This document shows, piece by piece, positions 4,977 through 61,301 of a DNA stretch of 64,000 bases. Source of the DNA: Labrys wisconsinensis (GTDB taxonomy: Bacteria; Pseudomonadota; Alphaproteobacteria; Rhizobiales; Labraceae); the NCBI RefSeq assembly GCF_030814995.1, contig NZ_JAUSVX010000002.1, positions 310,001 through 374,000 on the forward strand. Reading direction: 5' to 3'. Within the stretch, counting starts at the first letter, position 1. Each line of letters starts with the position of its first letter. Both the position numbers and the translations under genes were made by a program. A model generated the notes under the pieces. It had not been told where the DNA came from. It searched no databases and saw nothing but the letters and a program-made list of their open reading frames with translations.

Positions 4977-5126
4977 GGCTCCGATAAGGCCGGCATCGAG
5001 CCTGCGAGGGTACCGCACCGAGCGCTGCTGCCAGGCTCCTGCGGCCATCAAACGGCTGTGCATGGCGCGCCCACGACCTTGACGGCCGAGGCCGGGGCAG
5101 GGCTCCTCCGCAGAGGGCTCATCTGA

Positions 5127-6293
5127 ATGGTGATTGCTGTGAGCGAATACCAATACTACGAGTTCCAGACCGTCGACCGGCCGCTCGATTCCGCTGCGCA
5201 GGAGTCGCTGCGATCGCTCTCGTCGCGCGCGCGGATCTCGCCGACACGCTTCGTCAACCAGTACAACTGGGGCGACTTCCAGGGTGATCCGCGCGAGCTG
5301 ATGCAGCGCTGGTTCGACCTGCATCTCTACCTCGCCAATTGGGGCACGCGGCGCCTGATGCTGCGGCTGCCGAGGCGGTTCCTCGACACGCGCGATCTCG
5401 ATCCTTTCTTCGACGAGATCGACTGGGTGAAGGTGTGGACGCACGGCGATCACCTCCTCGTCGATATCCAGCTGGAGAGTGACGACAGAGGCTATATGGG
5501 GGAGGAGGGGGACGAGGACGACTCCGGCTGGCTCACCCGGCTGGCACCGCTGCGGGCTGATATGCTTTCCGGCGATCTCAGCCTGTTCTACGTCCTCTGG
5601 CTGACGATGGTGCAGGACGAAATGGTCGCGGATGACGTCGTCGAGCCGGCCGGCATGGGGCCGTTGACGGAGCCGCTCGAAGCCTTGGCGGAGTTCTTCG
5701 ACATCGATCTCGACCTCGTCCGCGCGGCCGCCGCCGAGCCCGACGCACGGCATGAGGCCTCGTCCCGTGATGTGGCGCGCGACTGGCTCGCCGCCTTGCC
5801 CGAAGCCGACAAGACGGACCTGCTGCTGCGTCTGGTCGAGGGCGACGTCCATGTCACCGCCGAGTTGCGGAACCGGATGCGCAAGAGCAGGCCGCGGCCG
5901 TCGAGGCCCGCTCGCACGGTCGGAGCGCTGCGCTTGCGGGCGCAGGAAATCCGGGAGGAGCGAGAGCGGGCCGAAGCGGAGCGCCAGGAAGCGGAACGAC
6001 GGCGGCTCGCGGCCGAGGCGGAGAAGGCGCAGCAGGTCCGGTTGGTCGCTCTCAAGCGGCGCGGCGAGGGTGTGTGGCGCGAGATCGAAACCGAGATCGA
6101 GCGCCGCAACGCCGCCGGCTACGACCGTGCGACCGGCCTGCTCGCCGATTTGCAGGTGCTCGCTGCACAGGAAGGAAGCCGGGGCGATTTCGACCGTCGT
6201 CTCGCCTCGATTCGATCGAGGCACGAGACGAAGCCAAAGCTCATCGAACGTCTGGAGAAGCTCGGTGGCGAAGGCCCGGCCCGCCTGCTGTGA
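5127..6293 (+). CDS. Conserved hypothetical protein with C-terminal coiled coil
   Basis: 388 residues. The N-terminus (EYQYYEFQTVDRPL, then FVNQYNWGDFQGDP and LYLANWGTRRLMLRLP) matches a family I recall from memory as often lying beside SWIM zinc-finger proteins; no such neighbour is present here. A Glu/Asp-rich loop lies near residues 118-133. A long charged helix, rich in E, R, A and Q and probably a coiled coil, spans about 272-330. No catalytic motif, signal peptide or membrane segment is visible. ATG 5127 was chosen; GTG 5130 and 5139 are possible. Function unknown. Confidence 0.7.
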   Translation: MVIAVSEYQYYEFQTVDRPLDSAAQESLRSLSSRARISPTRFVNQYNWGDFQGDPRELMQRWFDLHLYLANWGTRRLMLRLPRRFLDTRDLDPFFDEIDWVKVWTHGDHLLVDIQLESDDRGYMGEEGDEDDSGWLTRLAPLRADMLSGDLSLFYVLWLTMVQDEMVADDVVEPAGMGPLTEPLEALAEFFDIDLDLVRAAAAEPDARHEASSRDVARDWLAALPEADKTDLLLRLVEGDVHVTAELRNRMRKSRPRPSRPARTVGALRLRAQEIREERERAEAERQEAERRRLAAEAEKAQQVRLVALKRRGEGVWREIETEIERRNAAGYDRATGLLADLQVLAAQEGSRGDFDRRLASIRSRHETKPKLIERLEKLGGEGPARLL

Positions 6294-47379: not shown

Positions 47380-47393
47380 GCGGCTTCTCAGCG
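47374..47393. terminator. Hairpin spanning both stop codons of convergent genes
   Basis: CGCTGAG (47374-47380) and CTCAGCG (47387-47393) form a 7-bp stem with a 6-nt loop between the DUF2000 gene and the convergent LacI gene, including both stop codons. There is no T-run, so the termination role is tentative. Confidence 0.35.
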
Positions 47394-48416
47394 GCGCTTC
47401 GGCGCCGGGCCGGTGCTGCCGCGGACGATCAGCCGGATCGGCAATTCACGCTGGCGCAGATGGCGTCGCTGCAGCGGCGAGGCCAGGATGTAATCGGCCG
47501 CGTGCCGCCCCATGTCGCGCGCCGGCACTTCCAGGGTGCTGAGCTCGGGGACGGTCAGCTCGGCGATCTCCAGATTGTCGAAGCCGAGGATGGAGACGTC
47601 GCCGGGGACGGCGATGCGCTCCTCCTGGCAGTACTTGATCGCTCCGGCGGCGAGGATGTCGCTGCCGCAGAACACCGCGGTCGGCGGCTCGGCCGCGGTC
47701 ATCAGGGTCCTCATCCCGCTCCGGCCGTTGCCGAAGGCATAGGCGGCCTCGATGACCGGGACCGCCGCCGGATCTAGCCCCGAGCGCGCGACCTCGTCGC
47801 GGAAGCCGGCGAGGCGGCCCTCGGCGCGGTCGTTGTCCTGGGTGATGCCCGCGATCATCGCCAGGCGGCGGTGCCCGAGGTCGATGAGGAAGCGGGCGGC
47901 GGTGCGCCCGGCCTTCTCGTTGTCGAAGCCGATCGCCGCCCCCGTTGCCGTCGGGGCGCAGGTATAGGTGAAGACATAGGCGATGCGCTTGTGCTCGAGC
48001 AGGGCGAGGGTCTGCGGCTTGTGCCGGGTGCCGACCAGCACGATCGATTCGGCGCCGCGCTCGGCGAGCAGGCGGGCCTGATCGAGCTCCAGGTCGAGGT
48101 CGTAGACGGAGGTGTTGATGATCAGCGACACGTCCTTCTCGGCCAGGCGGCCCTGCAGCCCGTCGACCATGGTGGCGTAGATGGCGTGGTCGAGCGTCGG
48201 GATGATGGCGCCGACCAGCCGGGTGCGGGTGGAGCGCAAGGCGCGAGCGGAGCCGTTGGGGACATAGCCGAGCTCGGCCGCGGCTTGCCTCACCCGGTCC
48301 CGGACGCTGCGCCCGACCGTCGGATTGCCGTTCAGCACCCGCGAGACCGTCGCCGGCGAGCAGCCGGCGAGCCGGGCGACATCGACCAGCTTGGCGTCGC
48401 CCCCGTCCGAATCCAT
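47388..48416 (-). CDS. LacI-family transcriptional regulator
   Basis: 342 residues. The helix-turn-helix (about 10-35: KLVDVARLAGCSPATVSRVL, then NGNPTVGRSVRDRV) and the hinge helix region before NGSARALRSTRTRL are clear LacI features, and the rest is the effector domain. The frame is open to 48551, but ATG 48416 follows GGAG and starts the conserved domain. Three AAAACGATTT boxes (48447, 48534, 50674) link it to its own gene and to the operon starting at 48608. Confidence 0.9.
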   Translation of the reverse strand: MDSDGGDAKLVDVARLAGCSPATVSRVLNGNPTVGRSVRDRVRQAAAELGYVPNGSARALRSTRTRLVGAIIPTLDHAIYATMVDGLQGRLAEKDVSLIINTSVYDLDLELDQARLLAERGAESIVLVGTRHKPQTLALLEHKRIAYVFTYTCAPTATGAAIGFDNEKAGRTAARFLIDLGHRRLAMIAGITQDNDRAEGRLAGFRDEVARSGLDPAAVPVIEAAYAFGNGRSGMRTLMTAAEPPTAVFCGSDILAAGAIKYCQEERIAVPGDVSILGFDNLEIAELTVPELSTLEVPARDMGRHAADYILASPLQRRHLRQRELPIRLIVRGSTGPAPKRR

Positions 48417-48446
48417 CCGCGCGCTCCGTCCGTGAATCGGCCTGCC

Positions 48447-48462
48447 TGAAAACGATTTATCA
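48447..48462. promoter_or_regulatory. LacI-type operator box 1
   Basis: TGAAAACGATTTATCA shares AAAACGATTT with the boxes at 48534 and 50674. It lies 31-46 bp before the LacI gene start (48416, reverse strand), consistent with autoregulation. Confidence 0.6.
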
Positions 48463-48512
48463 TACCCGCGCTTGAGCCGCATCTTTTCCAGAGCTTTCCG
48501 GGCGCATGCCGC

Positions 48513-48550
48513 TTGACACGGTGGTGAAAATTCTAGAAAACGATTTCTCA
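48513..48550 (+). promoter_or_regulatory. Promoter and LacI-type operator box 2
   Basis: TTGACA (48513-48518) is a good -35 box; TAGAAA (48534-48539) after 15 bp is a possible -10. The pseudo-palindrome AGAAAACGATTTCT (48535-48548, centred on CG as in LacI/GalR operators) overlaps this -10, so binding would block transcription of the operon at 48608. Confidence 0.65.
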
Positions 48551-48607
48551 AGAACGGTTCCTTGGCCGCCGGTGTGCGGCGGGGGTGGGCGAGGCGGGTG
48601 AGGGAAC

Positions 48608-49828
48608 ATGCTGCTCGACGGCATCAAGGTGGTCAGCTTCTGTCACTTCCTGCAGGGGCCGGCCGCCGCGCAATATCTGGCGGACATGGGGGCCGACGTG
48701 GTCAAGGTCGAGCCGATCGGCGGCGCCCACGAGCGGCACTGGTCCGGCGCCGACGTCTATGTCGAGGGCGTGAGCGGCTTCTATCTCTGCGCCAACCGCA
48801 ACAAGCGCTCCATCGGCATCGACCTGAAGAGCGCCGAGGGCAAGGCCGTGGCGCGCCGGCTGATCGCCGACGCCGACGTGGTCATGGAGAATTTCCGGCC
48901 CGGCGTGTTCGCCAGGCTCGGCTTCGACGCCGCGACGCTGGACGAGCTCAACCCGCGGCTGATCTTCGCCTCGGCGAGCGGCTTCGGGGCGAGCGGGCCT
49001 CTGGCGCACAAGCCCGGACAGGACCTGCTGGTCCAGGCGCGGTCCGGCCTGATGGGCGTCACGGGGACGCCGGCGCGGGGGCCGGTGCCGATCGGGGCTG
49101 CGATCGTCGACCAGCACGGCGGCGCGCTGCTGGCGATGGGCATCCTCGGTGCCCTGGTGCGGCGCCTGCGCGAGGGCCGCGGCACGCGGGTGGAGGGCAG
49201 CCTCCTCAACGCCGGGATCGATCTCCAGGGCGAGCCCCTGGTCAACTACTTCGCCGGCGGCATGGAACGCCGCGCGCTCGACCGCCGCGGCAACCTGGCG
49301 ACCTGGTTCCATCCGGCGCCCTACGGGGTCTATCCCGTCCGCGACGGTCATGTCGTCGTGTCGCTGTGCGAGACGACGGACCTCGCCGAGGCGCTCGACA
49401 GCGATGCCCTGCGGGCCGCGGAGGGGCTCGACCGCCACCGGGACCGCGACGACTATGCGCGCCGGGTGGAGGAGGCGACCGCCGGCTTCACCATGGCGGA
49501 GATCGGCGCGCGCTTCGACGCGCGGGGCATCTGGTGGGCGCCCGTCGCCTATTACGACGAGCTGCTCGCCGATCCCCAGCTCGTCCATGCCGGCGTGTTC
49601 CGTCCGGTGACGGTCCGCGGCCGGACGATCCATCTCGTCAATCATCCCAACCGCTATGACGGCAAGGTGCCGGAGCTGCGCGTCCTGGCGCTCGAGATCG
49701 GCGAGCATACGCAGGAGATCCTCGCCGAGCTCGGGTACGCCGAGGCCGAGGTGCGCCGCCTTCTCGATGCGGGCGCCGTGGTGGCTTCGCGCCAGATCGA
49801 CAGGCCGGCCGAAAGAAGGGCGTCGTGA
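48608..49828 (+). CDS. CoA-transferase family III (CaiB/BaiF) protein
   Basis: 406 residues. The N-terminal GIKVVSFCHFLQGPAAAQYL region, the KSAEGKAVARRLIADADVV stretch and the active-site Asp139 in PGQDLLVQARSGLMG fit formyl-CoA-transferase-like enzymes. These move CoA between acyl groups. ATG 48608 has GAGGGAAC upstream. It is the first gene of the LacI-controlled operon and probably activates an acid made by the downstream oxidoreductases. Confidence 0.9.
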   Translation: MLLDGIKVVSFCHFLQGPAAAQYLADMGADVVKVEPIGGAHERHWSGADVYVEGVSGFYLCANRNKRSIGIDLKSAEGKAVARRLIADADVVMENFRPGVFARLGFDAATLDELNPRLIFASASGFGASGPLAHKPGQDLLVQARSGLMGVTGTPARGPVPIGAAIVDQHGGALLAMGILGALVRRLREGRGTRVEGSLLNAGIDLQGEPLVNYFAGGMERRALDRRGNLATWFHPAPYGVYPVRDGHVVVSLCETTDLAEALDSDALRAAEGLDRHRDRDDYARRVEEATAGFTMAEIGARFDARGIWWAPVAYYDELLADPQLVHAGVFRPVTVRGRTIHLVNHPNRYDGKVPELRVLALEIGEHTQEILAELGYAEAEVRRLLDAGAVVASRQIDRPAERRAS

Positions 49829-50652
49829 TGCAGCTCGACCGGTCGGAGACTTTCGTGCAGGCACCGATGGATCGGGCCGGCCCTGACCGTGGCCTCGCGG
49901 TCGTCACCGGTGGACGACGCGGCATCGGCCGGGCGATCTGCGGCAATCTGGCGGCGGCGGGCTTCGACGTGGCGGTGGTCGACCTCGTCGACGACGACAG
50001 CGCGGCCGACACCGTTGCCCTCATCCGATCCGCCGGCCGCAAGGGCGCCTTCTACCAGCGCGACATCGCGCAGACGGACGGCAATGGGGCGTTCATCGGG
50101 CGTCTCGAGAGCGAGCTCGGCTCGGTTGCCTGCCTGGTCAACAATGCGGGCGTCCAGGTCAGCGTCCGCGGCGATCTGCTGGACGTGACCGAAGAGGCCT
50201 TCGACCGGCTGGTCGACGTCAATCTTCGCGGCACCTTCTTCTTCACGCAGGCCGTGGCGCGCGCCATGTTGGCCCGGCCGGCATCCGCGTTCGACCGCTC
50301 GATCATCACCATCACCTCGGCCAATGCCGGATTGGTGTCGCCCGAAAAAGGCCCCTACTGCATCTCCAAGGCCGGGCTGTCGATGGCCTCGCAGCAATTC
50401 GCCCTGCGCCTCGCCGATGCCGGCATCTGCGTTCACGAGGTGCGGCCCGGCCTGATCCAGACCGACATGACAGCCGACGTCTATGAAAAATATTCAGTCC
50501 CGGTCGAGGCGGGCCAGGTTTCGGCCATCCGGCGCTGGGGCCAGCCCGAGGACATCGCCCGGGCGGTGACGACGCTCGCCGTCGGGGCGATCCCGTTCAG
50601 CACCGGCGACATCTTCCACATCGGCGGCGGCATGCAGCTCCACCGTCTCTGA
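49828..50652 (+). CDS. Short-chain dehydrogenase/reductase (FabG-like)
   Basis: 274 residues. Cofactor motif VVTGGRRGIGRAICGNLAAA, then NNAGVQVSVRGDLL, catalytic Ser in TITSAN, and YCISK with the catalytic Tyr and Lys. ATG 49828 overlaps the preceding stop by one base; GTG 49825 is an alternative. A 3-hydroxyacyl or polyol dehydrogenase role in the operon's pathway is likely. Confidence 0.88.
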   Translation: MQLDRSETFVQAPMDRAGPDRGLAVVTGGRRGIGRAICGNLAAAGFDVAVVDLVDDDSAADTVALIRSAGRKGAFYQRDIAQTDGNGAFIGRLESELGSVACLVNNAGVQVSVRGDLLDVTEEAFDRLVDVNLRGTFFFTQAVARAMLARPASAFDRSIITITSANAGLVSPEKGPYCISKAGLSMASQQFALRLADAGICVHEVRPGLIQTDMTADVYEKYSVPVEAGQVSAIRRWGQPEDIARAVTTLAVGAIPFSTGDIFHIGGGMQLHRL

Positions 50653-50673
50653 GCACCCTTTTTCGGACCTGTC

Positions 50674-50690
50674 GAGAAAACGATTTCTGA
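50674..50690. promoter_or_regulatory. LacI-type operator box 3
   Basis: GAGAAAACGATTTCTGA contains the same 14-base core (AGAAAACGATTTCT) as box 2 at 48535-48548. It lies 17 bp before the ABC ATPase start (50707), inside the operon, so it may govern an internal promoter or form a repression loop with the upstream boxes. Confidence 0.65.
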
Positions 50691-50706
50691 GACCGGAGGC
50701 GAGGAC

Positions 50707-52200
50707 ATGACGGCGGAGATCCTCGAAATGCGCGGCATCGACAAGCGCTTTCCCGGCGTTCACGCGCTGAGGAACGTCAGCTTCTCCGTGCGGAAAGGCT
50801 CCGTCCACGCGATCATCGGCGAGAACGGCGCCGGCAAGTCGACACTGATGCGGGTGCTGGCCGGCGCCTTTGCCGCCGACGGCGGCGAAGTGCTCGTCGA
50901 CGGAGCGACGGTGGCCGCGCCTTCGCCGGAGCGCATGCTGCAGCTCGGCATCGCAGTGATCTATCAGGAACTGGCGCAGGCGCCGCACCTCACCGTGGCC
51001 GAGAACATCTTTCTCGGCCGCTTGCCGAAGACGCGGCTCGGCACCGTCGACTGGCACCGCGCCCGGGCCGAAGCACAACGGGTGCTGGACCGGCTGGGAT
51101 TCCACGTCGATCCGGGGGCCCGCATCGACGCGATCAGCGTCGCACAGCGGCAGATGGTGGAGATCGCCAAGGCGATCGCCCGCGATGCCCGCATCGTGGT
51201 GCTCGACGAGCCCTCCGCCGTGCTCGGCGACGCCGAGCTCCAGCGCCTGTTCGAGACCATCCGCCGGCTGAGCCGCGAGCAGGGCGTGTCGTTCATCTAC
51301 ATCACGCACCGGCTGAAAGAGCTCTACGACATCTGCGAGGACGTGACCGTGATGCGCGACGGCGAGGTCGTCGCCTCCATGCCCCTCGCGGCGACGACGA
51401 CGAGCGACCTCATCCGGCACATGGTCGGCCGGGAACTGAAGGACATCTTCCCCAGACGGGCGAGCGCCGCGCCGGACGTGCGGCTCGAAGTCCGCAACCT
51501 CAGGCGCGGCCGGGTGCTGAAGGACATTTCCTTCGATGTGCGCCGCGGCGAGATCGTCGGCATTTGCGGGCTTGCCGGATCGGGCCGCACCGAGGTGCTG
51601 CGCGCGATCATCGGGGCCGACCGGATCGAGAGCGGTGAGATCCGCATCGATGGCCGTCCCGTCGCCATCGACGGGCCGCGGCAGGGCCTCGCCCGCGGCA
51701 TCGGGCTCCTGCCGGAGGACCGCAAGACCGAAGGGCTGTTTCTGGACCAGTCGGTCGCATTCAACATCACGCTGTCGGCGCCCGACCCCATCAGCAGGGC
51801 CGGGCTGATCAGCGGCCATCGCGAGGACGAGGCCGTCGCGCGCCTCATCCGCCAGCTCAGGATCAAGACGCCGGGAGGCGGCACGAAGGTGCGCACGCTT
51901 TCCGGCGGCAACCAGCAGAAATGCGGCATCGCGCGCCAGCTGCATGCCGGGACGCGGATCCTGCTCGTGGACGAGCCGACACGCGGCGTCGATGTCGCCG
52001 CCAAGCGCGAGATCTACGACCTCCTGGTCGAGCTCACCGCCGGGCGCGGCGCCAGCGTGCTGATGGTGTCGTCGGACCTGCCCGAGATTCTCGGCCTCTG
52101 CCACCGCATCGTCGTCATGCGCGAAGGCGCCGTCTCCGCGGTCCTCGATGCCGGTGCCGCGACCGAGGAAGCGATCATGACCCATGCGGTCTGGCATTGA
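50707..52200 (+). CDS. Ribose-type ABC transporter ATP-binding protein (two-domain)
   Basis: 497 residues, RbsA type. The N-terminal domain has Walker A GENGAGKST, a signature replaced by ISVAQRQMV, and VVLDEPSAVLG. The C-terminal domain has the degenerate Walker A GLAGSGRTE and the signature LSGGNQQK with LLVDEPTRGVD. Walker B of the first half reads LDEPSAVLGD. It energises the permease at 53748. ATG 50707 follows GGAGGCGAGG. The aldehyde dehydrogenase gene starts 10 bp after its stop. Confidence 0.92.
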   Translation: MTAEILEMRGIDKRFPGVHALRNVSFSVRKGSVHAIIGENGAGKSTLMRVLAGAFAADGGEVLVDGATVAAPSPERMLQLGIAVIYQELAQAPHLTVAENIFLGRLPKTRLGTVDWHRARAEAQRVLDRLGFHVDPGARIDAISVAQRQMVEIAKAIARDARIVVLDEPSAVLGDAELQRLFETIRRLSREQGVSFIYITHRLKELYDICEDVTVMRDGEVVASMPLAATTTSDLIRHMVGRELKDIFPRRASAAPDVRLEVRNLRRGRVLKDISFDVRRGEIVGICGLAGSGRTEVLRAIIGADRIESGEIRIDGRPVAIDGPRQGLARGIGLLPEDRKTEGLFLDQSVAFNITLSAPDPISRAGLISGHREDEAVARLIRQLRIKTPGGGTKVRTLSGGNQQKCGIARQLHAGTRILLVDEPTRGVDVAAKREIYDLLVELTAGRGASVLMVSSDLPEILGLCHRIVVMREGAVSAVLDAGAATEEAIMTHAVWH

Positions 52201-52210
52201 GGGCAAGGTG

Positions 52211-53734
52211 ATGGCGGAACGCAGCTATCTTCAGTTCATCGGCGGCCGGCCGGTCGAGGGGGGCGGCGGCGGCTCGATCGAACGGCGCTCGCCGTCGGAC
52301 GGGCGCCTGGTCGCGCGCTATGCCGACGGCACGGCCGGGGATGTCGATCTCGCCGTGGCGGCTGCACGGACGGCGTTCGAGGAAGGCCCCTGGCCGCGCC
52401 TCAGCGGCCTGGAACGCGCCGCGATCCTGAACCGCCTCGCCGACCTCATCCGCGACAACCGAGATCGGCTGACCCGCATCGAGGTCGAGGAGGTGGGCAA
52501 GCCGATCCGGTTCGCGCGCGGCGATATAGACGGCGCCGTCGCGCTGACGCGCTATGCCGCCTCCCTCGCCATGCAGATGGCCGGCACCGTCCACACCAAT
52601 CTCGGCGCGGGCAAGACCGCCCTCATCACCCGTGAGCCGGTCGGCGTCGCCGCCCTGGTGACGCCGTGGAATTTTCCTGCCCTGATCCTCGCGCAGAAAG
52701 TGCCGTTCGCGCTGGCCGCCGGCTGCACCGTCGTGCTGAAGCCGTCGGAATTCACCTCCGGGTCGGCCTTCGAAATCGCCGCGCTCGCGGTCGAGGCCGG
52801 CATTCCCGCCGGCGCCTTCAACGTCGTCAGCGGCTATGGCGCCACGGTGGGCGACCACCTGACGGCGCATCCCGGCATCGATTTCGTGTCCTTCACCGGC
52901 TCCACCCGCACCGGGCGGCGGGTGGTCGCCAACACCTCGACCAATCTGGTGAAGTCCTCCGTCGAGCTTGGCGGAAAATCCGCCAACATCGTCTTTGCCG
53001 ATGCCGACCTCGACGCCGCGGTCGACGGCGCGCTGACGGGCGTGTTCTTCAACAATGGCGAGTGCTGCATTTCGGGCTCGCGCCTCTTCGTCCACGCCAG
53101 GGTCGCCGACGGCTTCATCGCAAGGATCGTCGAGCGATCGAAGGCGCTCAGGGTCGGCGATCCCTTCGACGAGGCGACCGATATCGGCGCGCTGATCGAC
53201 GAGGGCCATCTCGCCAAGGTCACGGCCATGATCGCAGCCGGCGTCGACGAAGGCGCCGCGCTCATCCTCGGCGGCCGCGCACCTGCCGGGGCGCCCGGGC
53301 ACTTCTGCGAGCCGACCATCTTCGACCGCGTCGAACCCGGCATGACCATCTTCCGGGAAGAAATCTTCGGGCCGGTGCTGAGCATCACCCGCTTCGACAC
53401 CGTCGAAGAGGCCGTCCGCCTCGCCAACGACACCGCCTATGGGCTGGCGAACTATGTCTGGTCGAAGGACATCGAGACCGTCCTCACCGTCGCAGCGCGG
53501 CTGAAGAGCGGCTGGGTGCAGGCCAACACCGCCATCGACGGCGCGCCGCAGCTCCCGCTCACCGGCGTGCGGGGCTCGGGCTTCGGCTACGAGATGGGCG
53601 AAGCCGGGTTCCAGGAATTCACCCAGCTCAAGACGCTGCTCATCCGCACCGGGCCGCGCACGCCCGTCTTTCCGGCCGGGGCGTGGCCTGGCCCGCCGTC
53701 GCCGGCCGACGGCCGCGCGGCGAGCGCAATCTGA
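52211..53734 (+). CDS. NAD(P)-dependent aldehyde dehydrogenase
   Basis: 507 residues. Catalytic Cys286 in NNGECCISGS, Glu252 in SVELGGKS, and the cofactor site TPWNFPALI and FTGSTRTG. The ATG at 52211 follows GAGGGCAAGGTG. It oxidises an aldehyde to an acid, presumably the product of the downstream GMC enzymes. It lies between the importer's ATPase and permease genes, showing that transport and oxidation are one unit. Confidence 0.92.
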   Translation: MAERSYLQFIGGRPVEGGGGGSIERRSPSDGRLVARYADGTAGDVDLAVAAARTAFEEGPWPRLSGLERAAILNRLADLIRDNRDRLTRIEVEEVGKPIRFARGDIDGAVALTRYAASLAMQMAGTVHTNLGAGKTALITREPVGVAALVTPWNFPALILAQKVPFALAAGCTVVLKPSEFTSGSAFEIAALAVEAGIPAGAFNVVSGYGATVGDHLTAHPGIDFVSFTGSTRTGRRVVANTSTNLVKSSVELGGKSANIVFADADLDAAVDGALTGVFFNNGECCISGSRLFVHARVADGFIARIVERSKALRVGDPFDEATDIGALIDEGHLAKVTAMIAAGVDEGAALILGGRAPAGAPGHFCEPTIFDRVEPGMTIFREEIFGPVLSITRFDTVEEAVRLANDTAYGLANYVWSKDIETVLTVAARLKSGWVQANTAIDGAPQLPLTGVRGSGFGYEMGEAGFQEFTQLKTLLIRTGPRTPVFPAGAWPGPPSPADGRAASAI

Positions 53735-53747
53735 AGGGGAGGAAGGA

Positions 53748-54743
53748 ATGGTGGAGATGACCGCAAGGCCAACGGCGCCCGCCTCGGCCCCACACCCGCT
53801 GGCGCGGCTGCGCGGCTGGGCGCAGAGCATCGGCCTCCTCTGGGTGCTGGTGATCCTGTGCGCCGTGGCGATCTACCTGTCGCCGAGCTTCGTCCAGACC
53901 GGCAATCTTCTCAATGTCGGCCGGCAGGTCGCGCTGTTCGGCATCGTCAGCCTCGGCATGACCTTCGTCATCCTGACCCGCGGCATCGACCTGTCCGTCG
54001 GCTCGATCGTCGGCGTGGTCGCCGTCAGCGCGGCGATGCTGCTGGCGCAGGGGACGTCCATTCCCGTCACCGTGCTGACGGCGCTGGCGCTCGGCGCGCT
54101 GTTCGGCGCGTTCAACGGCGCCGGGGTCGTCCTCTTCGGCATGCCGCCGTTCATCATGACGCTGGGCACGCTGGTGATGGGGCGCGGCATCGCCATGACC
54201 ATTGCAAATGGCGAGCCGCAGAGCCTCGGCGCCGCCGCCGACGTCTTCCACGTGCTCGGCGGCGGCTTTCTCTTCGGCATACCCATACCGATCTGGATCT
54301 TCGTCGCCATCGCCGCCGTCGCCCATATCGTGCTGCGCCACACCGGCTATGGCCGCTGGATCTACGCGGTCGGCTCCAACGCGGAAGCCGCACGCCTCGC
54401 CGGCATCAACGTGCCCGGCGTGCTCATGTCGGTCTACGTGATCTCCGGCGTCCTGTCCGCGCTGACGGCCCTGATCTTCGTCTCCCGCCTGACGGTGGGC
54501 GAGCCGACGGCGGGAACCAACCTGGAGCTGGAGGCGATCTCCATCGTCGTGATCGGCGGCACCAGCCTGTTCGGCGGCGAGGGCGGCATCGTCGGCACGG
54601 TGATCGGCGCCGCCATCATCGCGGTGATGGCCAACATCCTCAACCTGCTCGGGATTTCACCCTTCACCCAGCAGATCGTGAAGGGCGCCATCATCCTCGC
54701 GGCCGTGGGCTTCGAGGTCATCCGCCATCGCAGGCGCAGATAG
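53748..54743 (+). CDS. Ribose-type ABC transporter permease
   Basis: 331 residues, RbsC family, about nine to ten membrane segments. Hallmarks: ILTRGIDLSVGSIVGVVAVS, VGSNAEAARLAGINVPG, and VIGGTSLFGGEGGIVGTVIG near the end. ATG 53748 follows GGGGAGGAAGGA. It forms the channel with the two-domain ATPase at 50707 and the binding protein at 54817. Confidence 0.93.
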   Translation: MVEMTARPTAPASAPHPLARLRGWAQSIGLLWVLVILCAVAIYLSPSFVQTGNLLNVGRQVALFGIVSLGMTFVILTRGIDLSVGSIVGVVAVSAAMLLAQGTSIPVTVLTALALGALFGAFNGAGVVLFGMPPFIMTLGTLVMGRGIAMTIANGEPQSLGAAADVFHVLGGGFLFGIPIPIWIFVAIAAVAHIVLRHTGYGRWIYAVGSNAEAARLAGINVPGVLMSVYVISGVLSALTALIFVSRLTVGEPTAGTNLELEAISIVVIGGTSLFGGEGGIVGTVIGAAIIAVMANILNLLGISPFTQQIVKGAIILAAVGFEVIRHRRRR

Positions 54744-54816
54744 GAATCCGTGCAATGCGGACCCTCGCCATGGTGGCGGGACGCAGATGCAGGGTCATCG
54801 GGAGGAGAAGAAGACC

Positions 54817-55764
54817 ATGACATTCACGCGTCGCAACGTCCTGACGGTCATCGCCGGCGCCGCCGGCGCCTCGATCGCCGGCGTCGAAATGCCGGCCTCC
54901 GCGGCCGAGAAGATCAAGATCGGCTTCAGCCAGTGCACGCTCAACCATCCCTGGCGTGTCGCGCAGACCAATGTCAACAAGGCCTATGCCGACGACAAGC
55001 TCAGCGATGTCTCGCTGATCATCACCGACGGCAACAACGACTCGGGCAAGCAGGTGTCCGACATCGAGAATCTGATGGCCCAGGGCGTCAAGGTGTTGAT
55101 GATCTCTCCCCTGACCGCCGATGCGCTGACGCCGATCGTCCGGCAAGCCATGGAAAGCGGCATTCCGGTGGTGACGCTCGACCGCAAGGTCAACACCAAG
55201 GTGACCTGCCATATCGGCGCCCTGAACCTGCCGATCGCCGCCGCCGCCGCGGCGCTGCTGGCCAGGAAGCTGGACGGCAAGGGCGCGATCATCGAGCTGC
55301 AGGGCACCGCCGGCGCGTCCGCGACGGTCGATCGCAACAAGGGCTTCGTCGACGAACTCGCCAAGACCCCCGGTCTCAAGATCGTGGCGAGCCAGAACTG
55401 CGACTACACCCGCGACAAGGCCGTCAAGTTCATGGAAGACATGGTGCAGCGCTTCGGCGAGGGCCAGATCCAGGCGGTCTATGCGCACAACGACGAAATG
55501 GCGCTCGGTGCGGTCCAGGTGCTGGAGGGCGCCGGCCGGTTGAAGGACGTGCTCGTCATCGGCATCGACGGCCAGAACAACGCCATCGAAGCGGTCGCCG
55601 CAGGAAAGCTCGCTGCAACCTTCACCTATCCCTATGTCGCCCCGGAAGGAATCCAGTACGCCCACAAGATCGCCAGTGGCGAGAGCGTGCCGGAGGTCGT
55701 CCTGCTCGATTCCGTCGCCATCACGGCCGATAATGCGAAATCCATGATCGGGAAGGGGTTCTGA
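54817..55764 (+). CDS. Ribose-type ABC transporter substrate-binding protein
   Basis: 315 residues. The N-terminus (TFTRRNVLTVIAGAAGAS) has a twin-arginine pair followed by a hydrophobic core, which may direct export by the Tat pathway; the cleavage is probably near ASAAE (about 25-29). The mature part (KIKIGFSQCTLNHPWRVAQT) is RbsB-like. The frame is open from 54787, but ATG 54817 follows GGAGGAGAAG and starts the signal. A strong hairpin (55777-55800) follows the gene. Confidence 0.9.
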   Translation: MTFTRRNVLTVIAGAAGASIAGVEMPASAAEKIKIGFSQCTLNHPWRVAQTNVNKAYADDKLSDVSLIITDGNNDSGKQVSDIENLMAQGVKVLMISPLTADALTPIVRQAMESGIPVVTLDRKVNTKVTCHIGALNLPIAAAAAALLARKLDGKGAIIELQGTAGASATVDRNKGFVDELAKTPGLKIVASQNCDYTRDKAVKFMEDMVQRFGEGQIQAVYAHNDEMALGAVQVLEGAGRLKDVLVIGIDGQNNAIEAVAAGKLAATFTYPYVAPEGIQYAHKIASGESVPEVVLLDSVAITADNAKSMIGKGF

Positions 55765-55776
55765 GGCTTCGAAGAG

Positions 55777-55800
55777 CCCGGCCGCGACCCCGCGGCCGGG
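55777..55800 (+). terminator. Strong GC hairpin after the binding-protein gene
   Basis: CCCGGCCGCG (55777-55786), a 4-nt ACCC loop and CGCGGCCGGG (55791-55800) form a perfect 10-bp stem. There is no immediate T-run, so it may act as a partial terminator or an mRNA-stabilising element that raises the binding-protein level, a common design. Confidence 0.6.
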
Positions 55801-55823
55801 TTCCCACGCTTTTTCGAGGAGAC

Positions 55824-56789
55824 ATGATGGCCAGAGCCGCTTTCGAGCCCCACGGGGTGATCCCTGCCTGCCTGATGCCGTTCGACGAGAATTACGCTGT
55901 CGACGAGCAGGCTTATCGCCGTCACCTCAACGATGTCGCGGGCGTGGACGGCGTCGCCGCCATCACCATCAACGGCCACGCCGCCGAGGTCCACGCGCTG
56001 ACGCTGGAGGAGCAGTACCGGGCCATCACGACAACGCTGGAGGAGCTCGAACGGCACGGTGTCGCCACCGTCGTCGGCGTCCATACCAGCTCGAGCCTGG
56101 AGGCGGGGCGGATCGCGGCGAGGGCGCAACGGGAAGGCGCCCATGCCTTGCTGGTGTTCCCGCCCGACGTCATGGTTCTCGGCGGCCATTTGCGGCCGGA
56201 CATGGCGACTGAGCATCTCAGGCACGTCACCGGCGCCTCGGATCTGCCGATCATCCTGTTTCAATACCCGGTGGCGTCCAATCTCTCCTACCCTCTGGGG
56301 ACACTGATCGAGCTCTGCCGCCGCTTCCCGACGATCCGGGCGGTCAAGGACCAGATCGGCGACGGCAACCAGCATGAGCGCCAGATCCGCGAGCTGAAGA
56401 GCCTCGACCGGCCGGTCCGCACGCTCACCACCCACAGCGCCTGGCTGCTCGCCTCCCTGGCGCTCGGGTGCGACGGCCTGCTTTCAGGTGCCGGCAGCGT
56501 CATTGCCGATCTGCAGGTCGCGTTGTTCCGGGCCGTCCGGGCCGGAGACCTGAAGAAGGCGCAGGCGATCAACGAGCGCATCTATCCCACGGTGCGCGCC
56601 TTCTACGACCCGCCGCTCGTGGACATGCACAACCGCATGAAGGAGGCGCTGGTGCTCCTGGGCAAGCTCGACCGGGCGGTGGTGCGCCCGCCGCTGATGA
56701 AGCCGGACGAGATCGAGATCGCAAAAATCCGCGGCCTGCTCGCGCGAGCCGGCATCACGCCCGACACCGTCTACGGATATGCGGAATGA
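55824..56789 (+). CDS. Dihydrodipicolinate synthase/N-acetylneuraminate lyase-family aldolase
   Basis: 321 residues (ATG 55824; ATG 55827 is possible). TIM-barrel class I aldolase: Schiff-base Lys175 in AVKDQIGD and Tyr148 in LFQYPV. The usual GTTGE carboxylate-binding motif is INGHAAE here, so the substrate is probably not the classical one. Such enzymes condense or cleave pyruvate with an aldehyde. It precedes a MaoC gene with 4-nt overlap. Confidence 0.87.
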   Translation: MMARAAFEPHGVIPACLMPFDENYAVDEQAYRRHLNDVAGVDGVAAITINGHAAEVHALTLEEQYRAITTTLEELERHGVATVVGVHTSSSLEAGRIAARAQREGAHALLVFPPDVMVLGGHLRPDMATEHLRHVTGASDLPIILFQYPVASNLSYPLGTLIELCRRFPTIRAVKDQIGDGNQHERQIRELKSLDRPVRTLTTHSAWLLASLALGCDGLLSGAGSVIADLQVALFRAVRAGDLKKAQAINERIYPTVRAFYDPPLVDMHNRMKEALVLLGKLDRAVVRPPLMKPDEIEIAKIRGLLARAGITPDTVYGYAE

Positions 56790-57226
56790 GCAGCGAAGAG
56801 GACTTCTATCTCAAGGCCGGCGACGCTGTGACGCTGGAGCGGGACGTGACCGAGAGCGCGGTGAACGGCTTCGCGGAGATCAGCGGCGACCATTCCCCCA
56901 ATCACATGGACGAGGGCGGGATGTCGGCGTCGGCCTATCGCGGTCGCATCGCCCACGGCGCCCTGCTGGTCGCCTACATGTCGGCCTGTTCCACCGAAAT
57001 CGTCGAGCGCATTCCGGACGTCCGGGCCAGCGAAACGCCGGTGTCGCTCGGCTATGACCGCATCCGCTTCATCAAGCCCGTCTATATCGGCGACCGGCTG
57101 CGGCTGCATTACAGGGTCCGCGATGTCGATCCGGCGCGGCGGCGCGCCCATTCCGACATCACCATCACCAACCAGGCCGGCGAGACCGTGTGCGTCGGCG
57201 AGCACATCCTCAAATGGGTCGCCTGA
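56786..57226 (+). CDS. MaoC-like (R)-specific hydratase/dehydratase
   Basis: 146 residues, hot-dog fold. The catalytic pair D35 and H40 lies in SGDHSPNHMDEG, followed by YRGRIAHGALL. Such enzymes hydrate enoyl-CoA or dehydrate 3-hydroxyacyl-CoA. It starts in the ATGA overlap with the aldolase gene, and the GMC gene begins 2 bp after its stop. It fits a CoA-thioester stage of the pathway. Confidence 0.87.
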   Translation: MSSEEDFYLKAGDAVTLERDVTESAVNGFAEISGDHSPNHMDEGGMSASAYRGRIAHGALLVAYMSACSTEIVERIPDVRASETPVSLGYDRIRFIKPVYIGDRLRLHYRVRDVDPARRRAHSDITITNQAGETVCVGEHILKWVA

Positions 57227-57227
57227 G

Positions 57228-58859
57228 ATGCGGACTGGCGCCACATTCGACTATGTCGTGATCGGCGGCGGGTCCTCCGGCTGTGCGCTCGCCTCGCGCC
57301 TGTCGGACGATCCGACGTGCCGCGTCCTGCTCCTCGAGGCGGGCTCGCGCGACTGGAGCCCCTACATCCACCTGCCGGTCTGCTACTACAAGACGACCAA
57401 GGGCCCCTACACCTGGGGCTTCCACCTCGCGTCGCAGGCGCACCAGGACGGTATTGCGCCCGTCTTCACCCAGGCTCGCGTGCTCGGCGGCGGCAGCTCG
57501 ATCAATGCGCAGGTCTATATCCGCGGCACGGCCGCGGACTATGACGGCTGGGCCGGGATGGGATGCCCCGGCTGGAGCTATCGCGAGGTCCTGCCCTACT
57601 TCAAGCGATCCGAAGCCAACGAGCGCCTGGCCGGCGAGTTCCACGGCATCGAAGGTCCGCTCGGGGTGTCGGACCAGCGGCACACCCATCCGCTGTCGAA
57701 AGCCTTCGTCCAGGCCTGCCAGGACTACGGCATGCCCCACAATGCCGACTTCAACGGCCGGGAACAGGCCGGCGCCGGGCTCTATCAGGTCACCAACCGG
57801 AATGGCCGACGCTGCAGCGCGGCCGTCGCCTATCTCGGCCGCGCCCGCGGGCGGCCGAACCTGAGCGTCCGCACAGGCTGCCTCGCACGTCGCATCGTGG
57901 TCGAGAACGGCCGCGCTGCCGGCGTGGAGTACCAGGCCGGCAAATCCTGCTTCACCGTGCGCGCGCAGCGTGAAGTCGTGCTCGCGGCGGGAGCGATCAA
58001 CTCGCCGAAGCTGCTGATGCTGTCGGGCATCGGTCCGGCCCGGCACCTGGAGAGCCACGGGATCAAGCCGGTCGCGGACCTCCCCGGCGTCGGCCGGAAC
58101 CTTCACGACCACCTCGACATCTTCATGATGTACAACGTGAAGACCGTGGAGAGCTACGACGCTTACAAGCGGATCCATCGTCAGATCTGGGCCGGTCTCC
58201 AATATGCCCTGTTCCGAAGCGGCCCGGTCAGCGCGACCGTGGTCGAAGGTGGCGCCTTCTGGACCACCGCCGGGCGGTCCGCCTCGCCCGATCTGCAGTT
58301 CCATTTTCTCGCAGGGACCGGGATCGAGGCGGTCACCGGCGACATGTCGACAGGGAACGGCTGCACCCTCAATGCCTATGTGCTCGATCCGAGCTCGCGC
58401 GGCGCCGTCACGCTGACGAGCGCCGACCCGCGCGCGGCGCCGAACATCGACCCCAATTTCCTCGCCGAGCGGGATGACCTCGACCGCACGGTCGAGGCGG
58501 TGCGGATCGGCCAGGAGATCATGGCCCAGCCCTCGATCGCCCGATATATCCGCGACGAGTTCATGCCCGGACGGGCCGTCCGCACGCGCGCGGACTACGA
58601 GGCCTATGTCCGCCGCGAAAGCCGCTCGGGCTACCACCCCGTCGGGACTTGCAGGATGGGGCAGGATGACATGGCGGTCGTCGACCCGCAGCTGCGGGTG
58701 CGCGGCGTCGAGGGACTGCGCGTCGCCGATGCTTCGATCATGCCGCGGCTCGTCTCTGGCAACACCAACGCCCCGAGCATCATGATCGGCGAGCGAGCCG
58801 CGGATTTCCTGCGCGGCAACCGGTCGGCGGTGGCAACCGCCGCGGCGTGCGCCCGATGA
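57228..58859 (+). CDS. GMC-family FAD oxidoreductase
   Basis: 543 residues. FAD motif VVIGGGSSGCALASRL, signature 1 ARVLGGGSSINAQVYIRGTA, signature 2 AAGAINSPKLLMLSGIGP, catalytic His in YHPVGTCRMG and the partner Asn in SGNTNAPSIM. The ATG at 57228 lies two bases after the MaoC stop; the frame is open upstream, but this is the family start. It oxidises an alcohol, probably the imported compound or an intermediate. It overlaps the hydratase gene by 4 nt. Confidence 0.92.
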   Translation: MRTGATFDYVVIGGGSSGCALASRLSDDPTCRVLLLEAGSRDWSPYIHLPVCYYKTTKGPYTWGFHLASQAHQDGIAPVFTQARVLGGGSSINAQVYIRGTAADYDGWAGMGCPGWSYREVLPYFKRSEANERLAGEFHGIEGPLGVSDQRHTHPLSKAFVQACQDYGMPHNADFNGREQAGAGLYQVTNRNGRRCSAAVAYLGRARGRPNLSVRTGCLARRIVVENGRAAGVEYQAGKSCFTVRAQREVVLAAGAINSPKLLMLSGIGPARHLESHGIKPVADLPGVGRNLHDHLDIFMMYNVKTVESYDAYKRIHRQIWAGLQYALFRSGPVSATVVEGGAFWTTAGRSASPDLQFHFLAGTGIEAVTGDMSTGNGCTLNAYVLDPSSRGAVTLTSADPRAAPNIDPNFLAERDDLDRTVEAVRIGQEIMAQPSIARYIRDEFMPGRAVRTRADYEAYVRRESRSGYHPVGTCRMGQDDMAVVDPQLRVRGVEGLRVADASIMPRLVSGNTNAPSIMIGERAADFLRGNRSAVATAAACAR

Positions 58860-59656
58860 CCGACGCCAACGAGATGCCCAGCCACGACGATCTCGTGCTC
58901 GCCGAGCGGCCCGCGGCGGGCGTGCTCCTGCTGACGCTGAACCGGCCGGAAAAGCTCAACGCGCTCTCCAAGGCGCTTCTCTCGACGTTGCGCGACAGGC
59001 TCGCCGTGGCGGAGGCCGACGGCAGCATCGGCTGCGTCGTGCTCACCGGGGCGGGCCGGGCCTTCGCCGCCGGCGCCGACATCCACGACATGCTGGCGCG
59101 GGGCCTCGCCTCCTACGCCGACCCGGAGCGCCTGGCGTCCTGGCGGGCGATCGAGGCCTTCGCCAAGCCGATGATCGCCGCGATCAACGGCTATGCCCTC
59201 GGCGGAGGGCTGGAACTGGCACTGCTGTGCGACATTCTCCTCGCCAGCGAGGTGGCGCGGTTCGCCACGCCCGAGATCAAGCTCGGCTCCTTCCCGGGAG
59301 ACGGCGGAACGCAGCGCCTGCCGCGGCTCGTCGGCCAGTCCTTCGCCATGCAGATGGTGCTGACCGGGGCCATGGTCGATGCCGTGCTCGCCGAGCGCAA
59401 GGGCCTGGTCAGCGAGGTGCTCGCCGCCGAGCGGCTGCTGCCGCGCGCGCTGGAGATCGCCGGGGACATCGCGTGCAGGTCCGTCGCGATCACGCCGCTC
59501 GCCAAGCGCGCCGTGCGGGCCGCCGCCGAGGCGCCCTTGGCGGAAGGACTGGCGATCGAGCACGCGCTGGTCGTCGACTCCTTCGCGACCGAAGACCGGA
59601 CGGAAGGCCTGCGGGCCTTCGCCGAGAAGCGCGAGCCCGTGTTCAGGGGGCGGTGA
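58856..59656 (+). CDS. Enoyl-CoA hydratase/isomerase-family protein
   Basis: 266 residues (GTG 58847 possible). Crotonase fold: oxyanion-hole Gly in GRAFAAGADIHDM and in GYALGGGLELALLC, with FPGDGGTQRLPRLVG carrying the usual catalytic-region residues. It hydrates or isomerises enoyl-CoA. ATG 58856 overlaps the GMC stop (ATGA). With MaoC and the CoA transferase it gives the operon a beta-oxidation-like character. Confidence 0.9.
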   Translation: MTDANEMPSHDDLVLAERPAAGVLLLTLNRPEKLNALSKALLSTLRDRLAVAEADGSIGCVVLTGAGRAFAAGADIHDMLARGLASYADPERLASWRAIEAFAKPMIAAINGYALGGGLELALLCDILLASEVARFATPEIKLGSFPGDGGTQRLPRLVGQSFAMQMVLTGAMVDAVLAERKGLVSEVLAAERLLPRALEIAGDIACRSVAITPLAKRAVRAAAEAPLAEGLAIEHALVVDSFATEDRTEGLRAFAEKREPVFRGR

Positions 59657-59681
59657 TCACCGCCATCGGAGGAACAGGTCC

Positions 59682-61301
59682 ATGTGGGACTATATCATCG
59701 CCGGAGCGGGCTCGGCCGGATGCGTCCTGGCCAACCGCCTGTCGGAGGACCCCGACGTCAAGGTCCTGCTGCTGGAGGCCGGGAGCCGCGACCGCAATCC
59801 CATGATCCATATCCCGGGCGGCATCGGCAAGCTGTTCGGGCCGGGGGTGAACTGGCGCTTCCACACCGTGCCGCAGCGCCATCTCGACAACCGGCGGATC
59901 TGGTATCCGCAGGGCAAGACCCTCGGCGGCTCGAGCTCGATCAACGCGATGATCTATATCCGCGGCCAGCGGGAGGATTACGACCACTGGGCAGCGCTCG
60001 GCAATGACGGCTGGTCCTATGAGGAGGTGCTGCCCTATTTCCGCCGGTCGGAGGACAATGAGCGCCTCGTCGACCGCTACCACGGCCAGGGCGGCCCGCT
60101 CTGGGTGTCGGACCAGGTCTCGCCGCACGAGCTCTCGCGCGCCTTCGTGCGGGCCTGCCAGGCCTGGGGCCTGCCGTACAATCCGGACTTCAACGGCGCG
60201 AGCCAGCACGGCGCGGGCCTCTACCAGGTCACCTGCCGCCACGGCCGCCGCCGCTCCTCGGCCGTGTCCTACCTCAGGCCGGTCGAGACGCGTCCCAACC
60301 TGACGGTGTGGACCGGCGCACGCGCGCTACGCATCCTCCTCGAGCGCGGCCGGGCCGTCGGGCTCGACGTGGCGCGGGGCAGGGCGGTGGAGACGGTGCG
60401 GGCGGAGCGCGAGATCATCCTCAGCAGCGGCGCCATCAATTCGCCGAGGCTGCTGATGCTGTCGGGCATCGGCGACGCCGACGCCCTGAAGGCCCTCGGC
60501 ATCGCGCCGGCGGTCGACCTCGCGGGCGTCGGCCGCAACCTGCAGGACCATCTGTGCACCAATGTCCACGTGACGCTGAAGCAGCCGATCAGCTATGACG
60601 GGCAGGATCGCTTCCCGCATGCGCTGCGGCACGGGCTGCAGTGGCTGCTCTACCGCAGCGGCCCCGCTGCCTCGGTGATCGTGGAGGGCGGGGGCTTCGC
60701 CGCCAGCGACGGCGGTCGCCGCCCCGACATGCAGATCCATATCGCGCCGGCCATGGTGGTGCGCGGCGGCCAGACCCGGCTCGGCGGCCACGGCTTCACG
60801 GTCAACACCACGTTCCTGCGGCCGAGGAGCCTCGGGACGGTCACCCTGGCCTCCGGCGATCCGGCGGACGAGCCGCTGATCGATCCGAACTACCATGCCC
60901 ATCCCGACGACCGCGCCATGTCGCTGAAGTCGGTGCGCGCGGCGCGCGAGATCCTGTCCCAGGCCGATATCGCCCGCTATGTCAGCGTCGAGCGCCTGCC
61001 GGGCCCGGATGCCCGCAGCGACAGCGAGATCATGGCCTATGTCCGGCAATATGCCTGCTGCGACTACCACCCCGTCGGCACCTGCAAGATGGGCGTGGAC
61101 GAGGCGGCCGTGGTCGACCCCGAGCTGCGCGTCCGGCATGTCGAGGGCCTGCGGGTGGCGGATTCCTCGATCATGCCGGTCCTGCTCAGCGGCAACACCA
61201 ATGCGCCGACGATGATGATCGCCGAGAAGGCCGCCGACCTCATCCGCGGCATCCGCCCCGAGCCGGCGCCGCAGCGGGAAGGAGCGCTCGGCCATGCCTG
61301 A
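59682..61301 (+). CDS. GMC-family FAD oxidoreductase, second in the operon
   Basis: 539 residues. FAD motif IIAGAGSAGCVLANRL, signature 1 GKTLGGSSSINAMIYIRGQ, signature 2 SSGAINSPRLLMLSGIGD, catalytic His in YHPVGTCKMG and Asn in SGNTNAPTMM. ATG 59682 follows GGAGGAACAGG. It resembles the 57228 enzyme closely, but the two differ in length and loops, so they may act on successive alcohols or different substrates. It is the last gene of the operon. Confidence 0.92.
   Translation: MWDYIIAGAGSAGCVLANRLSEDPDVKVLLLEAGSRDRNPMIHIPGGIGKLFGPGVNWRFHTVPQRHLDNRRIWYPQGKTLGGSSSINAMIYIRGQREDYDHWAALGNDGWSYEEVLPYFRRSEDNERLVDRYHGQGGPLWVSDQVSPHELSRAFVRACQAWGLPYNPDFNGASQHGAGLYQVTCRHGRRRSSAVSYLRPVETRPNLTVWTGARALRILLERGRAVGLDVARGRAVETVRAEREIILSSGAINSPRLLMLSGIGDADALKALGIAPAVDLAGVGRNLQDHLCTNVHVTLKQPISYDGQDRFPHALRHGLQWLLYRSGPAASVIVEGGGFAASDGGRRPDMQIHIAPAMVVRGGQTRLGGHGFTVNTTFLRPRSLGTVTLASGDPADEPLIDPNYHAHPDDRAMSLKSVRAAREILSQADIARYVSVERLPGPDARSDSEIMAYVRQYACCDYHPVGTCKMGVDEAAVVDPELRVRHVEGLRVADSSIMPVLLSGNTNAPTMMIAEKAADLIRGIRPEPAPQREGALGHA

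Follow-up and report, generated by a model that had tools for sequence, protein, structure and literature searches.

A conserved gene cluster in Labrys wisconsinensis associates a sugar-type importer with CoA-transferase and hydratase genes and may encode a CoA-dependent route of sugar catabolism

Why should the genes of a ribose-type importer be found among those of coenzyme A (CoA) thioester enzymes? The question is raised by positions 47388-61301 of a 64,000-nucleotide stretch of Labrys wisconsinensis (contig NZ_JAUSVX010000002.1, positions 310,001 to 374,000; hereafter the window). In this region, a divergent LacI gene is followed by eleven genes on the plus strand, in the order CaiB, short-chain dehydrogenase/reductase (SDR), RbsA, aldehyde dehydrogenase (ALDH), RbsC, RbsB, a dihydrodipicolinate synthase (DHDPS)-family protein, MaoC, a first glucose-methanol-choline oxidoreductase (GMC1), enoyl-CoA hydratase (ECH) and a second such oxidoreductase (GMC2). 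Four-base overlaps join CaiB to SDR, DHDPS to MaoC and GMC1 to ECH. Pfam or NCBIfam matches place every gene in the family and at the position given by a sequence-only reading of the window, ECH and GMC2 being placed via NCBIfam and the sequences of solved structures rather than Pfam. The results presented here indicate that the cluster is a true conserved unit, that it probably degrades something sugar-like in a CoA-dependent manner, and that this route seems to be undescribed.

Conservation was assayed by scanning the DHDPS-family protein against one genome per species. At least 560 relatives were confirmed and the best 80 loci were fetched; in 28 of these 80 the protein was at least 66% identical to that of the window. 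All but one of the 28 hold CaiB, SDR, RbsA, RbsC, RbsB, DHDPS, ECH and GMC2 in identical order. These 27 core loci are spread over 25 further genomes, two of which have two loci each; the hosts are Mesorhizobium, Shinella, Rhizobium, Nitratireductor, Pseudaminobacter, Oricola, Roseitalea, Limimaricola and several metagenome bins. L025, the one exception, is truncated by a contig end 1.6 kb ahead of the DHDPS gene; its arrangement also differs, with ECH, CaiB and LacI at 41-52% identity and a sulfatase. Among the 52 lower-identity loci making up the rest of the 80, none displayed the full core set. ALDH is also present at all 27 core loci, in 16 as the window type (66-81% identity) between RbsA and RbsC, and in the remaining 11 as a second type (42-45%) positioned after GMC2. 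A LacI homolog was detected at 22 of the 27. Together with the conserved operator described below, the recurrence of the core set rules out a chance neighbourhood: the gene combination noticed in one genome is kept as a unit in others. Within the genus Labrys, the DHDPS gene was recovered at E ≤1e-60 in this genome only (5 genomes examined). One of the core loci (L029, also L087), on a plasmid of Rhizobium sp. RCAM05350, has broken reading frames, and the cluster is in pieces in the public annotation, as a result of either decay or sequencing error.

In this genome the predicted operator is private to the unit. The LacI-family repressor (47388..48416, minus strand, likeliest start 48416) matches Pfam LacI and Peripla_BP_3. 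A predicted operator core, GAAAACGATTTC, is located at 48536..48547, 72 bp 5' of CaiB and directly 3' of a TTGACA box, and a second at 50676..50687, between SDR and rbsA, 31 bp 5' of the latter. The palindrome 5' of CaiB, GAAAWCGWTTTC, which in the window stands 3' of the TTGACA box, was found at most 320 bp from CaiB in all 28 sequences (window plus 27 relatives); it also stands 5' of rbsA in 27, L026 being the sole miss. In the 8.93-Mb genome the exact 12-mer occurs at two sites only, window positions 48536 and 50676, while the reversed pattern, used as a control, gave 0 matches. Helix-turn-helix and sugar-binding domains in the regulator and a palindrome with a central CG at the promoter are what a LacI/GalR sugar regulon displays, and we infer that LacI binds these sequences. 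An imperfect copy, TGAAAACGATTTATC (48447..48461), is located 31 bp 5' of the probable start of lacI and would allow lacI to regulate itself. Since rbsA has its own operator, the cluster probably consists of two LacI-controlled transcription units. Of the single LacI-controlled operon claimed earlier, control by LacI is supported by the LacI-type operator at the promoters, but a single operon is not supported.

The operator also helps to place genes that vary between loci. A HAD-family phosphatase gene (labelled HAD-IIB in one public record) is present at all 27 core loci, 29-100% identical to the query. It is absent from the window, where 13 bp separate ALDH from RbsC, and the best whole-genome match is 29%; the sequence-only reading therefore had no means of noticing this partner gene. 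MaoC was found at 10 of the 27 core loci and forms an optional module with GMC1. A glycerate-kinase gene (family by Pfam) is present at 7 of the 27, and beside an eighth, L027. Displaced HAD genes have the operator in front at three of four loci (L006, L023, L028; not L022), and so do displaced MaoC-GMC1 modules (L006, L021, L022; not L008); both are therefore probably members of the regulon. In some genomes the operator is also found in front of an additional importer accompanied by SDR and Gfo/Idh genes (L199), of a second binding-protein gene (L204, L206), or of a CaiB (68%)-MaoC pair that follows an Rbs-type importer (L201). In 16 related genomes, for which part of the listed 12-mer sites was fetched, the 12-mer was also found at sites without a gene related to our BLAST library (e.g. 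L210-L212, L214, L216); these were not counted as regulon.

Three further arrangements were seen beside operator or operator-like copies. At L199, a LuxR-type autoinducer-binding regulator (4409-5128) is divergent from the second Rbs-type importer-SDR-Gfo/Idh set, which has two operator copies. At L202, an unusual gene (2771-3949, 393 aa) fuses a LacI DNA-binding domain to a PfkB sugar-kinase domain, and adjoins an operator-like site and a GATase1-like gene. In Rhizobium sp. Root1203 (L207:2660-5621), an amino-acid-type ABC importer is inserted between lacI and caiB, behind an operator copy.

What the unit takes up is suggested by its importer. A two-domain ATPase (RbsA-like, 50707..52200, ABC_tran in two stretches), a BPD_transp_2 permease (RbsC-like, 53748..54743) and a Peripla_BP_4 binding protein of sugar type (RbsB-like, 54817..55764) together form a CUT2 sugar importer. 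The components are those of RbsABC and YtfQRT, but the ATPase and binding protein score under the equivalog cut-offs. The nearest solved sequences of the binding protein include 2ioy, RBP and YtfQ, with ribose- and galactofuranose-binding proteins among them. Residues W56, R57, D132, R133, R183, N235 and D261 (numbering from a start at 54787) are kept in 26-27 of 27 proteins, at positions aligned with sugar-contacting residues: YtfQ shares the W-R pair, and both RBP and YtfQ share D-R, R, N and D. Thus, the ligand is likely polyhydroxylated. The coupling of a sugar-type importer to CoA-transferase and hydratase genes, as proposed in the sequence-only reading, is supported.

CaiB, SDR, ALDH, GMC2, MaoC and the crotonase retain their presumed catalytic residues. 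CaiB (48608..49828; CoA_transf_3, 313 bits) is a CaiB/BaiF family III CoA-transferase whose aspartate in IVDQHGG, which we take to be the active-site residue, is kept in 26 of 26 proteins. The Ser-Tyr-Lys of the SDR (49825..50652; adh_short_C2, and above the cut-off of the PRK12745 equivalog) and the Cys and Glu of ALDH (52211..53734, alternative start 52184; Aldedh, 545 bits) are kept in 27 of 27, and the His and Asn of GMC2 (59682..61301; a core gene, present at 27/27 related loci) in 26 of 26; all these residues are presumably catalytic. In the optional module, MaoC (56786..57226; MaoC_dehydratas) has kept its Asp and His in 10 of 10, and GMC1 (57228..58859) matches GMC_oxred_N/C.

The crotonase (58856..59656; NCBIfam matches under equivalog cut-offs) has both glutamates, taken as catalytic from their roles in rat ECH, as expected of an enoyl-CoA hydratase, and its best matches among solved structures are plain hydratases. 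Its loop reads PG-D-GGTQRL, with Asp where the mammalian enzyme has Ala in PGxGG. This Asp was present in the 26 readable core crotonases, the 27th (L029) being broken. Of the 17 crotonases found in the Labrys genome, 16 were aligned, and the loop Asp appeared in two, both within the clusters described here. The same residue occurs at L124, L125, L126, L129, L131, L139, L140, L090 and L095; the crotonases of Embleya, Rhodococcus and Glaciihabitans have Trp, and others Ser, Gly or Ala.

The DHDPS-like protein (55824..56789; Pfam DHDPS) belongs to a subfamily with an altered motif. In pyruvate-type DHDPS enzymes, the threonine pair of the GTTGE motif binds the pyruvate carboxylate and a tyrosine is catalytic. 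The window protein reads I-N-G-H-A-A-E-V instead, an NGHAxE-type motif. The alteration, pointed out earlier, is real and fixed across the subfamily: N50, H52, E55 and K175 are found in all 75 readable proteins from fetched loci, with His52 in place of the first threonine and Ala or Ser at 53 in place of the second, and the tyrosine position, 146, is Phe in 73 of the 75. The structure model (predicted local distance difference test score, pLDDT, 91) gave Foldseek template-modelling (TM) scores of 0.79-0.85 to family members (top 50), which identifies the family fold without hinting at a substrate. In a search of solved-structure sequences no close relative was found, the best match scoring 77 bits. 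The TIM-barrel and the Schiff-base lysine (75/75) are those of a DHDPS/NAL class I lyase; the G-T/S-T-G-E motif and catalytic tyrosine of the pyruvate type are lacking. As the lysine is kept while the threonine pair and tyrosine are replaced, a Schiff-base enzyme is probable and a pyruvate aldolase unproven. The plain pyruvate-type aldolase of the sequence-only reading is not supported, and a canonical 2-keto-3-deoxygluconate (KDG) or DHDPS aldolase was likewise not accepted.

How might these activities combine? We tentatively propose that the cluster is a catabolic unit, repressed by LacI, whose substrate is polyhydroxylated and sugar-like, bears a primary alcohol and is degraded via CoA thioesters; this proposal, drawn from gene content and conserved residues, we judge slightly more open to doubt than to belief. 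The substrate would enter via the CUT2 importer. GMC2 would oxidise its CH2OH group to an aldehyde, and ALDH would convert this to an acid, a uronate or an aldonate. CaiB would then form the CoA thioester, acidifying the alpha-hydrogen as needed for beta-elimination, and the crotonase would remove the beta-hydroxyl by such an elimination. With CoA passed on, the product would become a 2-keto-3-deoxy-type acid: an aldonate would give the 2-keto-3-deoxy acid, and a cyclic uronate a 4,5-unsaturated ring of the kind opened by GH88. The SDR may adjust the oxidation state of the product, and the DHDPS-like Schiff-base protein may cleave the acid, perhaps to pyruvate and glyceraldehyde, the latter proceeding through glycerate to glycerate kinase. 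The glycerate-kinase genes fit glyceraldehyde as a product. MaoC-GMC1 would broaden the substrate range or serve a second step. In this scheme the CaiB-crotonase pair would replace the sugar-acid dehydratase or polysaccharide lyase of known pathways. The earlier order of oxidation, activation, hydration and cleavage fits, except that dehydration by beta-elimination appears more likely than hydration.

Related gene combinations were found at other loci. On another contig of the same genome, L122 contains LacI (40%), CaiB (53%), a DHDPS-family gene (29%), GMC (51%), ECH (46%), ALDH (47%) and SDR (45%), together with a sugar-isomerase-type gene, CUT1 importer genes and a Gfo/Idh gene. Two further loci of this genome have the orders CUT2-SDR-CaiB(35%)-ECH (L161) and Gfo/Idh-MaoC-CaiB(39%)-CUT2 (L162); both stand on long branches in the CaiB tree. 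In Martelella and Pseudosulfitobacter, aldose 1-epimerase, SDR, CaiB, ECH and a fumarylacetoacetase-type gene are accompanied by sugar importers. A further relative is an actinobacterial gene set, unannotated in its record, in Embleya sp. NBC_00888 (L088:6906-17569), with an Rbs-like importer, ALDH (54%), a family I CoA-transferase, ECH (42%), GH88 (34 bits, cut-off 26.6), 2-keto-3-deoxy-6-phosphogluconate (KDPG) aldolase, a PfkB kinase and GMC2 (70%); among ten stretches tested, no polysaccharide lyase and no further reductase were seen. We counted these CoA genes beside 2-keto-3-deoxygluconate-type genes in favour of the proposed route. GH88, kinase and KDPG aldolase with no further reductase seen would fit a cyclic substrate whose anomeric centre is not free. 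1,5-Anhydroglucitol is a candidate: elimination and ring opening would lead directly to 2-keto-3-deoxyhexonate, in agreement with the Embleya set.

GH88-type genes near a CoA-transferase and ECH or MaoC were also found at L090, L134, L139 and L140. Of 37 further records found, five were inspected, and in all five a GH88-type gene was located about 7 kb or less from a CoA-transferase: two in Bradyrhizobium (with ECH), one in Cupriavidus (with MaoC), and one each in Aminobacter and Agrobacterium, where neither ECH nor MaoC was seen. The Cupriavidus, Aminobacter and Agrobacterium loci have the look of acid loci, not of sugar loci. The proximity of GH88 to CoA-transferase is thus recurrent (L090, L134, L139-L143), in some cases with ECH or MaoC and in some without obvious sugar genes; at non-sugar loci GH88 may act on other vinyl ethers.

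The neighbourhood of CaiB was then compared with that of other family members. Among 289 genomes of the class, 16 had a CaiB at E ≤1e-80. The CaiB group comprised 17 readable members, with one dropped; the rows L095 and L138 were left out of tree and counts for their short CaiB frame. Neighbours within 6 kb were scored by tblastn with the BLAST library. As a control, 20 other CaiB genes were taken from the same genomes, out of more than 140 listed: the best PF02515 match per genome (two at contig ends were swapped for a later match) and four more from the Labrys genome. An ECH- or MaoC-like neighbour accompanied 17/17 members against 5/20 controls (Fisher p 3e-6), and a DHDPS-like neighbour 11/17 against 0/20 (p 1e-5). 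The CaiB tree of 64 rows displayed a supported split between a side of 46 rows, 30 of them sugar-marked but ten being window-type loci of our own choosing, and a side of 18 rows, 2 of them sugar-marked. Distance correlations among the cluster genes were high; having no control, they were not used.

Altogether, the proposed route is favoured by the conserved unit, the private operator (also in front of displaced HAD and MaoC-GMC1 genes), the sugar-type importer, the retained catalytic residues, the crotonase loop Asp, the glycerate-kinase genes, the ECH/MaoC- and DHDPS-like neighbours of the CaiB group, and the recurrence at L122 and in the GH88-bearing sets. Several points weigh against it. 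The HAD phosphatase has no role in the scheme. Release of pyruvate is doubtful, given that the carboxylate-binding residues and the catalytic tyrosine of the DHDPS-like protein are replaced. Because the window set includes neither GH88 nor another known enzyme that opens cyclic enol ethers, the chemistry suggested by Embleya can be transferred to it only in part. Embleya differs also in its importer, whose ATPase, in contrast to that of CUT2, contains one ABC domain, and in its crotonase, where Trp replaces the loop Asp. In the neighbourhood comparison the gap in sugar markers was modest (10/17 against 4/20, Fisher p 0.02), in a control set weakened by three of its four sugar-marked members being the Labrys genome's own CaiB loci (L160, L161, L162). 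Of the 17 'ECH' neighbours, two (L132, L135) have neither of the catalytic glutamates. Numerous rows are closely related to one another, and part of the marker library derives from such loci, which makes the comparison supportive, not decisive. Finally, at some related CaiB loci and some GH88/CoA-transferase loci, importers of the TRAP, amino-acid or Liv type and acyl-CoA dehydrogenases take the place of sugar genes, indicating that some members of these families act on other acids. The wider idea of a widespread, undescribed class of sugar catabolism, in which a sugar acid made by GMC and ALDH becomes a CoA thioester and undergoes crotonase/MaoC beta-elimination in place of dehydratases, and of lyases in GH88 variants, is rather doubtful on this evidence.

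Among the alternatives, side-chain degradation survives best, although it is rather unlikely. An imported glycoside or conjugate would have its aliphatic or phenylpropanoid part shortened in a beta-oxidation-like manner by GMC, ALDH, CaiB and ECH, leaving the polar rest to SDR, the DHDPS-like protein and HAD. GMC, ALDH, CoA-transferase and crotonase are indeed the usual set for oxidation of an alcohol side chain, and relatives of the CaiB or DHDPS gene co-occur with acyl-CoA dehydrogenases and MaoC. However, Pfam and NCBIfam detected neither acyl-CoA dehydrogenase nor thiolase among the cluster genes, the core set has no glycosidase, and the binding-protein pocket resembles those of sugar-binding proteins. 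An open-chain version, which we consider distinctly unlikely, would have a hexitol or pentitol oxidised to an aldonate, with CaiB and ECH acting as a CoA-dependent aldonate dehydratase that yields the 2-keto-3-deoxy acid directly. As it needs no ring-opening enzyme, it matches the genes of the window set more closely than the Embleya scheme does, and glycerate kinase at 7/27 loci agrees with it, but the 70% identity of GMC2 to the GH88-associated Embleya enzyme suggests a cyclic substrate. It is quite improbable that the substrate is carbocyclic (cyclitol- or quinate-like), with CaiB activating a ring acid and the crotonase opening or dehydrating the ring as in cyclohexanecarboxylate breakdown. 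CUT2 importers do carry inositol, and at the distant locus L080 a class II dehydroquinase gene adjoins those of CaiB, ECH and a family I CoA-transferase; yet L080 is the single such locus seen, and the crotonase retains both hydratase glutamates, with plain hydratases as its best solved matches. A choline- or carnitine-type quaternary amine pathway (BetA, BetB, CaiB) is scarcely credible, for the NCBIfam models that suggest it all match below cut-off (choline dehydrogenase, betA, 489 and 499 against 732 bits; betaine-aldehyde dehydrogenase, BADH, 440 against 669; L-carnitine CoA-transferase, 102 against 413) and the importer is of sugar type.

The proposed CoA-thioester route can also be set against known systems. 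Non-phosphorylative Entner-Doudoroff and related 2-keto-3-deoxy-acid pathways use an aldonate dehydratase and a DHDPS-family aldolase such as YagE. The window shares with them a sugar importer, alcohol and aldehyde oxidation and the DHDPS fold (TM 0.82 to YagE, 2v8z), and 7/27 of its relatives have glycerate kinase; it differs in having CaiB and a crotonase in place of an IlvD- or enolase-type dehydratase, and a DHDPS-like protein devoid of the threonine pair and tyrosine. The unsaturated-uronate route proceeds through polysaccharide lyase, GH88, 2-keto-3-deoxygluconate kinase and KDPG aldolase. The Embleya relative resembles it through GH88, KDPG aldolase and PfkB, here with window-type GMC and ALDH, but has CoA-transferase and crotonase, and no lyase in the stretches tested; the window differs further in its lack of GH88. 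With the CaiB-type catabolism of carnitine, oxalate or succinate-glutarate, the window has in common a family III CoA-transferase with its active-site Asp, but its CaiB is under every NCBIfam cut-off listed for it and is accompanied by a sugar importer and LacI. To our knowledge, sugar-acid dehydration in known pathways proceeds without CoA. In agreement with the earlier statement that no described sugar pathway is known with this combination, full-text searches of the open literature, with subscription journals mostly outside them, listed no paper with these genes together; one of them likewise listed no paper that uses terms like gluconyl-CoA or glucuronyl-CoA.

If the proposed route is correct, sugar acids would be dehydrated by a CoA-transferase and a crotonase, through thioester chemistry more familiar from fats and organic acids, in a LacI-controlled sugar regulon that recurs, outside the window, at 27 loci of 25 genomes, and elsewhere in paralogous forms. 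A set of genes in soil and plant-associated bacteria named 'CaiB', 'enoyl-CoA hydratase' and 'choline dehydrogenase' would then have been wrongly assigned to fat or amine metabolism. With its private operator and its fixed gene set, the unit allows the substrate to be tested directly.

Finally, an acyl-CoA ligase-type gene, recognised by eye and with no counterpart adjoining the gene set at the 27 related loci, is located upstream of the cluster on the opposite strand, at window positions 44715-46241.

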